Source: Malacoplasma iowae
GTDB taxonomy: Bacteria; Bacillota_I; Bacilli_A; Mycoplasmatales; Mycoplasmoidaceae
Direction of reading: 5' to 3'
DNA: 64,000 nucleotides
NCBI RefSeq assembly: GCF_900660615.1
Contig: NZ_LR215023.1
Coordinates: 310,001 to 374,000 of the forward strand
Numbering within the stretch: position 1 is the stretch's first letter; the number at the start of each line of letters is the position of its first letter. Below, one piece after another: positions 15,924 through 60,514 of this stretch. The notes below the pieces were generated by a model. That model had not been told where the DNA came from. It searched no databases and saw nothing but the letters and a program-made list of their open reading frames with translations. The position numbers and the translations under genes were made by a program.

Positions 15924-15998
15924 TGGCAGGGGTAGCAGGACTCGAACCCACAACACGCGGATTTGAAGTCCGCCGTTCTACCATTGAACTATACCCCT
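15924..15998 (-). tRNA. tRNA-Trp (anticodon UCA)
   Basis: Minus-strand cloverleaf with a 7-bp acceptor stem AGGGGTA/TACCCCT, discriminator G, and CCA encoded. The anticodon stem GCGGA/TCCGC closes the loop CTTCAAA, giving anticodon TCA; the T-arm carries GGTTCGAGTCC. A UCA anticodon reads UGA as tryptophan, which explains the many in-frame TGA codons in the surrounding genes. A separate CCA-anticodon tRNA for UGG, if any, is not in this window. Confidence 0.96.
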
Positions 15999-54601: not shown

Positions 54602-54655
54602 GTTTGTACTTTATTATCATTCTATAAAATAGTAAAATTAATATTGGTAACATTT

Positions 54656-56017
54656 ATGGAAAAAGTATTAAATGGTTTAGACTGATTAATATATAGTGAA
54701 GACTATATAGAAAATAAAATTTACTTAAATAAAAATGAACTATTATATAGATTTAGTCAAATTAATTTTGATAATATATACATTGATTCATTAAATTTAT
54801 TAAAAGTTGATGGCAATTTACTAAATAGCAAAGAATTCAATATTAACTATAATGAAAGTGTTTATTCATTATTTTTTGATTATGCTAGCAAAATAAATAT
54901 TCCTTTTATATATAATGGGTATCATTTAAAAAATATATTATTAAATATTGCTTATAATTTTTCAAAATGTAGTGTCCCTTTTGAGATGGTATTTAAAATA
55001 GAAAAATGATGTCAAATTAATAGAGAAGAAAATGTAGAAGCTTTTAATAATTATCAAAACCAAAAAAGCATAAGCTTTAACTCAATGGAATTTAACAGTT
55101 TTTTTAATTCTTTTAAAGATTTGTTTGAACAATTTAAAGATGATTTTAATTACTACATTTTATTTAGAATGTTTGTTCATTATTGCCAAATTTATTTGAA
55201 TCCAAAAGATATTTCATTTTTGTTAAATAATAAAGAAAATTATAATTTGATTAAACATCAGGTTTTTAGTAAATATTTAAATTTAAATTATTATTCAATT
55301 AAATTGTTTGTTTATCAAGCGTTATATATTATTAATAATTTATTGGAAAATAGTGACAATTCAACAAAAGGTAAAATAGAAGATTTTATTTCTTGTTTTA
55401 ATTCTTTGAATATTTATGAAATTGATGAAAAAACAAAAGAATATAAGCTAATTGAAAGAAATGACTTCATTGAGTTTAAAAATAAAGAATATGTTCTTTC
55501 GTGAGAACAAGAAATTGAAAATAATCAAGAAATCGAAGATCAATCTGTTGATAAAAATAATGATGAAAATAGTTATGAAAATCAAAATAATGAAGAACTA
55601 GAAAAACAAAATGTAGATTATAACGATAATGAAAACACTGATTTACCACTTCTTGAGAATAGCCAAGAAGAAAATAATTTTGAAGAAGATAACATTTTTG
55701 AAGAAGATAACATTACTGATATAAAAGATGATAGATTGTATTTAATCAATACAGAAAGTAATGAAATGATTAATGCAAATAGTAAAGTTGATGACAGTTA
55801 TGATCAAATTTATAACGAATATGATTATCAACAAAATGATGAAATAACTCAAAATTTTAACAATCAAGATTATATTCAAGAAAATATAGCAGATGATGAT
55901 TTTGACCAGAAAATCAACAATCAAAAAAATGAAAAAGATGAATATGAAATAATACACGAAAGAATAAATGATGATAATTTTTCAATTTTTGATAGTCTAG
56001 AAGTTGAAGAAGAATAG
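54656..56017 (+). CDS. Hypothetical protein with acidic Asn/Asp/Glu-rich tail
   Basis: A 453-residue protein of unknown family. Residues 1-285 are mixed, mainly helical and Asn/Tyr/Phe/Leu-rich (MEKVLNGLDWLIYSEDYIEN at the start). From about 285 to 453 it becomes a low-complexity acidic segment of Asn, Asp, Glu and Gln with almost no hydrophobic residues (ENNQEIEDQSVDKNNDENSYEN), probably disordered. It contains a 7-residue duplication NIFEEDN/NFEEDN. Such acidic tails occur in attachment-organelle proteins of mycoplasmas, which makes a cytoskeletal or adhesion role conceivable. No signal peptide or TM. No clear Shine-Dalgarno. Confidence 0.7.
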
Positions 56018-56109
56018 CAGTCATTATATCATTAAAAGTTGAAATTGATAATTTTTTTTCTTAAAATTATAGGTATTAAAATATGCATATTTAATATATA
56101 GAGGTGAAT

Positions 56110-57261
56110 ATGAAGAAAATTGGTAAAAGTTTAAAGAAAACATTAGTGTGCTGTACAGCACTTAGTTCATTTATGGTAATTTCTCCTCTTATTGTAGAAA
56201 CAAATTTTTCTAATAACAGTACAACTTTAAACTATAGTGATACTAATAAAAATTCATTAAACATAAATCAATATCAAAATAGCGAAGTAAAAACTTTAAA
56301 AGCAATTGAAGATCAAGCAACTCAACCATATGCAGATAGATTTAAAATAAAAACAATAGCAGATGCTACAACTGAAAATGAAAAAACACAAATAGATGCC
56401 ATTTATAGTGGTAGACAATCTGATGTAAATGTTGGATATGGTTCTGACCAACAACTAAGTAGTGTTTCAAGTTTACCAACTAATGGACTTCTTAATTTGT
56501 TTACTTTCACAGATAAAGTAATTGGTATTACTGGTGATATTTCAAAAAGGCCAAAAATTGAAGTTTTATCAAAAGCAGATAAAACAAAAAATGAAAATGT
56601 TACAACAAATTTAAGTTCATTTAATAAAATTGGTGAGACAGACATTTCTGAAAACTTATTAAATTCACTTGGTATTTTATTTGTTAAAATAACAACTTAT
56701 GATAAATCAGCTCAAAGTACTGTTTATACAGATTATGTTATGCTTTCAGGATTTGGATCAAGTCTTTCTTCAAGTTCATCAAGCGGAGTTTTGACACCTA
56801 ATGGTGAAGAATTTAAAAAGAAAGTTCCAGATTTATCAAATAATGATTTAGCAAATTACCCAACATTTGTTTCTGATTTTGAAAATAAAGATACTGTTAA
56901 TACTGTAAAGGCCAACACAGATCCACAAATGAAAATAGTATCAAATAGACAAGATGATGCTAGAAATGGTAGTGTTAAATATGATGTTAACTTTAACTGA
57001 GAAATAAATGAACAAATTTATAATTCAGCAAAAGTTACTAACACAGGTACTGGTACAAACAATAGCGGCCAAAAATCATATTTAAATAGAGAAATGGAAA
57101 AATCATTTTCAATTTCTGGTTTCCAACCAAGTTCTAACATAACAACTAGAGAAACAGTTATAATTGTTGCATCTATTATTGCAGCTGGTGTTGTTGTTTC
57201 AATATGTGTTTATATTGTGTCTTTATTTACTAGAAAAATTAGAAACTCTAGAAAAATGTAA
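56110..57261 (+). CDS. Surface protein with N-terminal signal and C-terminal TM
   Basis: A 383-residue protein. It begins with a basic N-terminus and hydrophobic segment (MKKIGKSLKKTLVCCTALSSFMVISP), which looks like a signal peptide; CC is present but no classical lipobox follows. A ~320-residue Ser/Thr/Asn-rich ectodomain with an SLSSSSSSG run is followed by a strong TM (VIIVASIIAAGVVVSICVYIVSLF) and a short basic tail. This is a type I membrane protein topology. Ligand unknown. AGAGGTG lies 4-10 bp before ATG 56110. Its terminator hairpin (57268-57291) was hit by the IS. Confidence 0.7.
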
Positions 57262-57291: not shown

Positions 57292-58453
57292 GCTCGATTG
57301 ACATGTGAAGTGCAACACTCAAAAAAGAGTGTGCACTTCATTTGTTTTGTTTGTAAGTGTTCACTAATAAAAAGATAATGAATATTAGGAGTGCTTATGA
57401 AAACTTATAAACATTTAACAAAAGAAGAAAGATGCTTAATTTATTTTCTTTGAAATAAAGAAAAATATTCTATGAATAAGATTGCAAAAATCTTAAATAA
57501 AAACAAATCAACAATATCAAGAGAATTAAAAAGAAACACATCTTCAACAGGGATTTATTATTCATCAACTGCTCACAAAAAATACATTAGAAGAAAATCA
57601 AATTGTCATATGTTTTTTATGTTGAAGTACAAAAACTTCACAGATCTTTTTATTCAAAAATTTAATCCTAAATCTCATGGTGTAGAAGCTACAATTTTTT
57701 GAATAAAAGAAAACTATCCGTTAGTTAAAGTTCCAAGTGCTAGGCAAGTATTTAGATGAATCAATAGCAAGATTTGAAAGATACAAAGAAGAGATTGTTT
57801 AAGAAGAAAATATGTTAAAGGAAAAAGAAGAAAAATAGGTATATTTTCTAAAATTGATGGAAAATACTGCATTCCTTATAGTCTAAGACCAGAAAAGATA
57901 AACAATAGAAAAGAATTTGGACATTGAGAAGCTGATCTAATAGTTAGTAAAAGGCAAAGTGGTTATTACCACTTATTGACATTAGTGGAAAGAAAAACAA
58001 GGTTGGCAATTATTAGAAAAATAAAAGGGAAGAACGCTAGATCAATGATGGCTAAAATGTATACCATTATTCGAGATGAAAAACTCCCAATAAAAAGCAT
58101 CACTGTTGATAATGGGTTAGAGTTTCAAATGATGGGAATAACTGCAAAACAATTCAACTTTAAAGTTTATTATTGCCAACCTTATTCTTCATTCCAAAGA
58201 GGGTCCAACGAGAACATAAATGGGATAGTTAGAAGATGATATAAAAAAGGAACTGACTTCAGTTTAGTAAGTGAAGATAAAATAAAAACTCTTGAATGAA
58301 AAGTAAACAACATCCCAAGAAAAATGTTTGGTTATAAAACAGCTTACCAAATGTATCAAGAAAATATTTAAAACAAAAAAACTCTCAACTTATATTTCAA
58401 AGTCGAGAGTTTAATGTAACATTGAAGTGTTGCACTTCACATGTCAGTTAGGG
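57292..58453 (+). mobile_element. IS30-family insertion sequence, copy 4 (1162 bp)
   Basis: Complete element with the same ends (GCTCGAT, GTTAGGG) and terminal inverted repeats as the other copies. It sits between the surface-protein gene and the Asn-rich pseudo-ABC gene, and its outward structures could affect transcription between them. Flanked by the 21-bp hairpin duplication. Confidence 0.95.
57397..58371 (+). CDS. IS30-family transposase (copy 4)
   Basis: A 324-residue DDE transposase, matching copy 1 in every stretch compared. ATG 57397 with AGGAG upstream; intact under the TGA=Trp code. Confidence 0.95.
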
Positions 58454-58474: not shown

Positions 58475-58564
58475 TTTTATTTTAATTTCTATAATGCTTT
58501 AATAAAATTAAAGTATTTTTTTAATGATAGAATAATACATGTAAATATTTATTAAGGAATATAT

Positions 58565-60514
58565 ATGAATAACAATTTCAATAATAATAATCCTAATAAG
58601 CCAAACAATTATCAAGGTCATAATTTCACTAATAGAAATTCTAATCAAGGACCTAATTTTCATAATCATGACAACAATTATGCAAATAATGTAAATAGTA
58701 TGAATTCTGAATATATTGAAAATGATTATCAATTAAACAATCAACAAGCTCCTATTGACTATGACCAAATTAATAGATTTAGTTATCAAGGACACTATGA
58801 TAATAATCAAAATTATTACAATAATAATGATTCATATAATCAATACAACGAAAATGATTTTAGTAGATTTAGCTACAACAATAATAATCAACAAGAAAAT
58901 TTCTACAACACAAATGGTAATCAATCATTTGTAAGCTATGATAATAATGTAAATAGAACACCAATCATTAACAAAGATCCTTTAGATTATGTTAAAAAAA
59001 ATGGAATGTCTGGAATAGATTATTATGGTAGTATTCCAGATGAAAAAAGATATGATATGTATCTATATACTTTAGCTGAATTAAATGAAATGGAAATCAG
59101 TGTAGAAAATACAACTAAAAAATTTTATATGGGCAAAATGTATTACAAACTAACTGATGAGTATTTAAATTATTTAAGCAAAATTCAAAATGGTGATTAT
59201 ACAAATCAAGAAAATACATTAACTTCACATGGAAAAGAATTAGATAATAATCTAACTAAAAAAGAACAAGAAATAGATTATGAATTAAATTTTGATAACC
59301 CTGTTGAATCAAATGAAAATTTAAGTAATCAAGAATTAGAAAAAAGTAATCTTGTTTCAAAAAAAGAAAAAGTAAATAAAAATACCAATAATTATGAAAA
59401 TAATATTGATGAAGATGAAGACGAAGATGAAGAACTTAATAATTTAGTAATTGAAGATGATGTTGAATTTGATCAAAAATTATTAACTGGACCTGATATT
59501 CAAATAGATGAAAACATATATCTTAATGAAGATGAAATAAATGGAACAACTAATGTTGATGGTGATATTCCAGAAAATGATAGTTCTAATTTGGAAAACT
59601 TAATTAATGATCACACACAAATACTATTAAATCAAAATAAAAATCTTGACACTGATTTGGAATATAAAATATATAGTTTATCTTTCAATAAAAACGAAAA
59701 AAGAAAAGACTTAGGTAAACTTGATAACATCACTTTTGATATTTATCCAAAAGATAGAATTATGGTATTAAGTTCTGATAAAAGTAAAACATCAACTACT
59801 TTGATTGATGTTTTAAGCAGACGTCACGAAAAACAAAGTGGGTATGTATATTTCAATATAAAAAGAAAACAAAAATGAGTTGATATGTACTCTAAAGAAT
59901 TTAAACAATATGATTTGGATATGGTTAACAAAAAAAGTGATGTTTTATATCAACTAGAAAGTCCAGATTATTTTTCATATGGAAGTGAGAAAAAAGATAC
60001 TCCATTATCATTATTTAAAAAAGTTTTCTATGCAATAGATGTTTTAGTTTCAGAATCACTATTTTATAAACTTATTGAAATATTTGATTTTAAACCACTG
60101 ATCAAAAAACACATTAGTCAACTTAGTGATACAGAGAAAAGAATATTTGTTTTAATATGTGATATTCTTATTGGAAAACATGTACTTATTATTCCATTAA
60201 CTGAATTCAAATTGGAAATTAATAAAAAAATTGAGTTTTTCTCTTTATTAAATAATATGAATAAAAATAAGTCTACAATTATTATTTTTAGTTCGTGAGA
60301 TATTCTTGATGCAAAGATTTTTGCTAATAGGGTTTTATGTTTAGATGAAGGAAAAATGATATTAGATAAAAAAATTAATGATATTTTAAAAATTCACAAT
60401 TCACTTGATAAATTCTTATTAGATTATTTACAAACCAACAATAGAAATAAAAGAAGACAAGAATTGTTAAAAAAAGATGATGATGACGATGATGAAGTAA
60501 TATATGAAGATTAA
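58565..60514 (+). CDS. Asn-rich prion-like domain fused to inactive ABC-ATPase-like domain
   Basis: A 649-residue protein in three parts. Residues 1-135 are mostly Asn with Gln, Tyr, Asp and Ser, a prion-like composition. Residues 136-365 are acidic, with an EDEDEDEE run. From about 368 it follows the order of an ABC ATPase, KLDNITFDIYPKDRIMVL, but every catalytic motif is changed. Walker A reads SSDKSKTSTT (403-412). The signature reads SQLSDTEKR (518-526) for LSGGQ-R. Walker B reads VLIIPLTE for LLLDEPT. The H-loop is FSSWD, without His. The D/H order and ANRVLCLDEGKMIL fit the ABC C-terminus well. It ends in an acidic DDDDDDE run. AAGGA precedes ATG 58565. Role unknown. Confidence 0.75.

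Follow-up and report, generated by a model that had tools for sequence, protein, structure and literature searches.

The ABC domain is one of the most common protein domains, and its motifs hardly vary. A gene of Malacoplasma iowae raises the question of what such a domain is kept for once those motifs are gone. The window, by which we mean the whole stretch of DNA analysed (64,000 nucleotides, 24% GC), lies on the single contig of 1,278,574 bp that makes up the M. iowae genome (G000). The gene is an open reading frame at 58565-60514 (+) with an ATG start, which under genetic code 4 encodes 649 amino acids, two in-frame TGA codons being read as Trp. Elsewhere in the window, a tRNA with anticodon TCA at 15924-15998 (-) was called tRNA-SeC by ARAGORN and is most likely a tRNA-Trp reading TGA in code 4. 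An earlier note on this DNA had proposed a prion-like Asn-rich segment fused to a catalytically dead ABC-ATPase fold. The gene and its parts are laid out as follows.

58554..58558 (+): candidate ribosome-binding site AAGGA, from sequence pattern only.
58565..60514 (+): whole gene, 649 aa, genus-conserved pseudo-ABC protein, from the open reading frame and orthologue searches.
58565..58972 (+): residues 1-136, Asn/Gln/Tyr-rich and predicted disordered, seen only in the window species and in G007, its closest relative; from composition, model and orthologues.
58970..59194 (+): residues 136-210, small domain specific to the genus, sharing 87% identity with its G007 counterpart and recognisable in the seven orthologues that have the region.
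59195..59599 (+): residues 211-345, linker rich in acidic residues and in Asn, with predicted disorder broken only by short helices; from composition and model.
59648..60439 (+): residues 362-625, predicted ABC-type nucleotide-binding-domain (NBD) fold without catalytic motifs; from family profile, predicted structure and motif comparison.
59771..59797 (+): residues 403-411, relic P-loop SSDKSKTST, from alignment.
59840..59884 (+): residues 426-440, GYVY(X)N...W.D, where the pseudo-ABC family is most conserved, from column conservation.
59960..59971 (+): residues 466-469, SPDY at the Q-loop position; from alignment, family profile and column conservation.
60122..60136 (+): residues 520-524, LSDTE, relic signature (LSGGQ), from motif comparison.
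60182..60205 (+): residues 540-547, VLIIPLTE, relic Walker B, from motif comparison and column conservation.
60290..60298 (+): residues 576-578, SSW, relic H-loop, from motif comparison and column conservation.
60440..60511 (+): residues 626-649, acidic tail at the C-terminus with low conservation (26% identity to its G007 counterpart).

Sequence models place the protein near the ABC ATPases at low scores: the Pfam ABC_tran (PF00005) match reaches 16.6 bits, under the 25-bit cut-off, and an NCBIfam ECF ATPase match (E=1.2e-6) falls far under that model's cut-off. A profile of the family searched against PDB sequences aligned nearly the entire ABC domain with EcfA2 (E=3e-8). AlphaFold2, given only eight sequences as input, modelled the ABC part alone with a pLDDT of 79.5 and a pTM of 0.80. 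Foldseek searches with this model placed EcfA/CbiO ATPases at the top (best E 8.5e-13) and returned 1174 chains at E<=0.001, and VIA-align 2 gave Z values of 15-18 over 220-240 residues at an rmsd of 4-5. In the full-length model, residues 1-150 and the greater part of 210-340 have a pLDDT around 25, the small domain reaches 55-69 and much of the ABC part 70-90. The ABC fold is hence established as far as prediction can establish it, and the earlier note, which had assigned this fold to the C-terminal half and had proposed structure prediction and fold comparison as a check, was right on this point. A search for transmembrane segments found none in the protein, while a control exporter scored positive, and a search of a plasmid collection gave no match.

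The family profile found orthologues in nine of the ten Malacoplasma genomes (E 1e-120 to 2e-101). The genome without one (G008) is 79% complete, and the contig carrying its exporter genes, to which we return below, breaks off some 108 bp before the exporter on its upstream side. Within the same taxonomic family the next matches start at 1e-20 and are ordinary ATPases, with P-loop and LSGGQ/E intact wherever a frame with both motifs is readable; this search across the taxonomic family found no dead orthologue in the sister genera.

The window protein carries SSDKSKTSTT at the P-loop, without GxxxxGK(S/T), LSDTE at the signature, VLIIPLTE at Walker B and SSWD at the H-loop, and the Q-loop Gln is absent. 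These losses are shared. Walker A, GxxGxGK(S/T), is missing from 9/9 orthologues, the LSGGQ signature is replaced by LSDTE, LTDVE, LSELQ or L(D/N)D.., the Walker B Asp and the catalytic Glu are gone (VLIIPLT or ILIKSIC), and across all nine the H-loop His is replaced by other residues and the Q-loop Gln is absent. In the other congeners the relic P-loop has one residue fewer than in G000 and G007. As a measure of how unusual this is, 27 of the 30 Pfam ABC_tran matches listed from G000 keep the P-loop Lys, and several of the remainder are fragments. The loss of key residues from Walker A, signature, Walker B and H-loop, first noted for the window protein, is thus borne out there and in all nine orthologues. 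The best reading of these sequences is a non-hydrolysing pseudo-NBD that probably does not bind ATP either. A separate ABC domain in the same genome, L078 at G000:C1:1241438-1241908 (-), also has a degenerate P-loop (GVEGNGQS); it adjoins an intact one and is apparently the second half of the ATPase of a nucleoside-type importer.

Motif loss, taken alone, would speak for a decaying pseudogene or a damaged reading frame, and homologues with intact Walker motifs would have pointed the same way. The homologues are dead as well, which rules out a damaged frame. In the comparison of G000 with G007, the ABC domain is 80% identical with a dN/dS of 0.10 (0.06 for pepF, taken for comparison), as against 46% and 0.35 for the Asn-rich part and 40% and 0.41 for the acidic linker; dS between the two genomes is about 1.2, near saturation, so that all these ratios are approximate. 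By these ratios, purifying selection acts on the ABC domain. With the frame open in nine species, the losses identical and dN/dS low, the pseudogene explanation has a negligible probability, and we discard it.

Conservation within the family has moved away from the catalytic sites. Against a family mean of 1.9, the Walker B, H-loop and signature columns score 1.8-2.0, i.e. average. The conserved columns are those of GYVY..N..W.D (3.6), the P-loop helix (3.0) and SPDY (2.75), and a D533...K538 pair after the signature helix also stands out. SP(D/N)Y is kept in eight of nine orthologues despite the lost Gln. Such a shift suggests a replacement constraint, as one would expect if a pseudo-enzyme had acquired a new surface for binding. 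The pseudo-ABC proteins are a real, conserved and mildly surprising family.

The N-terminal part behaves differently. Residues 1-140 contain 47 Asn, 12 Gln and 14 Tyr; the best 80-aa stretch is 44% Asn+Gln and ranks first among the 52 ORFs of the window (runner-up 30%). The Asn bias of residues 2-136 has P=2e-17 against a window Asn background of 8.6%, and no other of the 52 ORFs falls below 1e-10. AT-bias as the whole cause was ruled out by this value, obtained on the local background, and by the GC content, which is 23.1% in the Asn-rich part vs 22.7% in the ABC part. Residues 1-136 combine a significant N/Q bias with predicted disorder, the two features taken here as marks of a prion-like domain. 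Asn/Gln-rich disordered proteins reach their largest fractions among bacteria in Mycoplasma (PMC6400439). As the earlier note observed, acidic runs follow: residues 211-345 hold 23 Glu and 17 Asp, and the C-terminus ends in DDDDDDE.

Seven orthologues have a readable N-terminus, and only those of the window species and G007, mutually nearest relatives, are Asn-rich. The other five have a mostly basic N-terminus before the same genus-specific middle domain, with net charges over the first 40 residues of +14 (G001), +9 (G009), +5 (G006), +4 (G002) and +3 (G005); KKSFFGFFKKSKK and SIFKKIFGKKGSIKK are examples of such basic or basic-aromatic N-termini. The Asn-rich tail is real and beyond chance, but a lineage-specific ornament that does not define the family. 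Of the prion-like N-terminus proposed earlier, the strong Asn/Gln/Tyr richness stands and its standing as a family feature does not, given 46% identity, a dN/dS of 0.35 and two species. A neighbouring 457-aa protein (54644-56017 (+)) with a long Asn/acidic tail is the second most Asn-biased ORF of the window and was found only in G000, G007 and, weakly, G006.

The small domain of about 75 residues precedes the ABC part. Searches of Pfam, NCBIfam and PDB sequences gave no clear match, the hits being single weak ones such as Rgp1 (E 0.001 in 1/7 members). No relative was found in its own genome, and there were marginal matches only in the taxonomic order. A winged helix, suggested by a helix-hairpin-helix pattern, was dropped when the same three sequence searches gave nothing usable for it.

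Where the dead domain came from was addressed with an NBD tree, in which the eight of nine orthologues of sufficient length form one clade (100/100). This clade groups with three ABC-2-type ATPases of G000 (99/97), but its branch is long, at 2.0 changes per site. In AU tests neither a link with the MsbA-like exporters (p 0.078) nor one with the EcfA-like pair L057/L071 (p 0.12) is rejected; the tests do not decide on a named origin, and we give none. The grouping bears on the idea that the protein is a degenerate NBD subunit pairing with the active NBD of an ABC-2-type transporter, by analogy with the degenerate site of heterodimeric exporters. The tree position speaks for such pairing, although it sits on that long branch with both alternatives left standing. 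Each of the three related ATPases is encoded beside its own permease, and since all three ABC-2-type permeases found have an ATPase of their own, an orphan permease as partner was discarded. In known exporters a degenerate site continues to bind ATP (PMC7756269), whereas the pseudo-ABC protein has lost the P-loop Lys, Walker B and the signature alike, so that no canonical ATP sandwich is expected. We consider this pairing highly improbable.

The gene neighbourhood points to a different transporter. In G001, G002, G003 and G005 an MsbA-like half-exporter pair lies directly downstream on the same strand, after 230-320 bp; this adjacency is absent in G000, G004, G007 and G009. In the window species and G007 the gene precedes pepF and pgi, and the contexts in G004 and G009 differ again. 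The orthologous exporter pair of G000 (55-58% identical, vs 32-46% for two other exporter pairs) is about 460 kb from the pseudo-ABC gene and stands directly behind a P116-family lipid-acquisition gene, while the order in G001 is P116, pseudo-ABC gene, exporter pair. The two P116-family genes that adjoin the pair are the following.

G000:C1:832650-835070 (-): P116-family lipid-acquisition gene adjoining the exporter pair.
G001:C1:533344-535944 (+): P116-family lipid-acquisition gene adjoining the exporter pair.

These two arrangements would fit an accessory factor in lipid uptake that works with the P116-family lipoprotein and the exporter pair. However, G000 and G001 have six P116-family matches each, the P116 genes found in G002, G003, G005, G008 and G009 are away from the exporter, and the pseudo-ABC gene itself is elsewhere in G000 and G007. 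A role in lipid uptake is therefore distinctly unlikely, and the P116 link, seen in two genomes only, was rejected as a general feature. The positional link to the exporter itself is suggestive only.

Immediately upstream in the window lies an IS30-like transposase (57391-58371 (+), HTH_38 + rve) that is absent there in G007; further copies occur at L111, L112, L117 and L118, several of them 99-100% identical or of the same length. Before it stands a 385-aa protein (56104-57261 (+)) that carries a signal-like segment at its N-terminus and a hydrophobic one at its C-terminus, and whose C-terminal half has relatives in nine of the ten genus genomes and no clear family match. A function deduced from this gene and the 457-aa gene, both upstream in G000 and G007, was dropped, as neither was seen beside the pseudo-ABC gene in other species.

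Our preferred reading, to which we give a probability of roughly 40%, is a cytoplasmic peripheral pseudo-ATPase that acts as adaptor, regulator or scaffold by docking on a membrane partner, with the exporter pair as first candidate. Homology, motif loss in nine species, purifying selection and the lack of a transmembrane segment are observed and the fold is predicted. In the ancestor of the genus the ABC domain would have ceased to hydrolyse ATP, and probably to bind it, and would have been retained as a protein-protein interaction module. The Q-loop face is where the NBD of working transporters meets the permease, and the RecA-like core may dock on its partner through the new conserved patch (GYVY..W.D with SPDY at the former Q-loop). 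Judged by composition only, the N-terminus, which most congeners have in a basic or basic-aromatic form, could help to hold the protein at the membrane; this does not extend to the window species, whose Asn-rich N-terminus would be a lineage-specific disordered extension replacing the basic one. Once docked, the protein might regulate or scaffold its partner, the likeliest being an ABC transporter of the genus, in the first place the MsbA-like heterodimeric exporter pair.

The main rival to an exporter partner is a structural protein of the cytoskeleton or attachment organelle, with the dead ABC fold as building block and disordered Asn-rich or basic segments driving assembly at the cell pole. 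This develops the suggestion of the earlier note that the dead fold may be a docking module for a structural or adhesion complex, although the one positional link to emerge is that to the exporter pair. To our knowledge, few organelle proteins of Malacoplasma have been described. Searches met the dead form in no other genus, M. penetrans is reported to show attachment-organelle motility (PMC13104615), and the disordered, acidic, Asn-rich composition would suit such a protein; yet no attachment-organelle family is among its Pfam or NCBIfam matches, the full-length model has no long coiled coil and most orthologues are without the Asn-rich segment, and we regard an organelle scaffold as unlikely. 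A broader version, tentative and somewhat less doubtful, is that a soluble, motif-less ABC domain serves as a non-nucleotide scaffold, its new conserved surface and genus-specific partner domain assembling a complex of the membrane or of the attachment organelle, and its low-complexity tails differing between species.

If true, a free-standing ABC domain that lacks the nucleotide-contacting motifs and is under selection throughout a genus of bacteria with small genomes would be a case of the fold put to new use solely for interaction. As searches met it in Malacoplasma alone, the protein is a candidate for traits special to the genus, such as membrane transport or the unusual attachment organelle.

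Among known systems, bacterial prion-like (N/Q-rich disordered) proteins resemble residues 1-136 in composition, and the likeness ends there, the segment being confined to two species and weakly constrained. The ABC-2-type exporter ATPases (G000:C1 769464, 1081737 and 1195298; L063, L072 and L069) are the nearest kin in the NBD tree but keep P-loop GK(S/T), LSGGQ, Walker B DE and H-loop. ECF/CbiO-type ATPases (EcfA, PDB 4mki, 5x40) share the predicted fold across nearly all of the domain, give the best sequence-profile and Foldseek matches and have a P-(D/E)-Y motif adjoining the Q-loop that aligns with the family profile. Unlike them, the pseudo-ABC protein has lost all catalytic motifs, has gained an N-terminal extension and a small domain and is not encoded with an ECF permease. 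The degenerate NBDs of heterodimeric exporters and NBD1 of the CFTR/SUR type likewise retain an ABC domain that does not hydrolyse, but in those the domain holds ATP and is joined to transmembrane domains, whereas the pseudo-ABC protein is soluble, has no fused transmembrane domain and has lost Walker A too.
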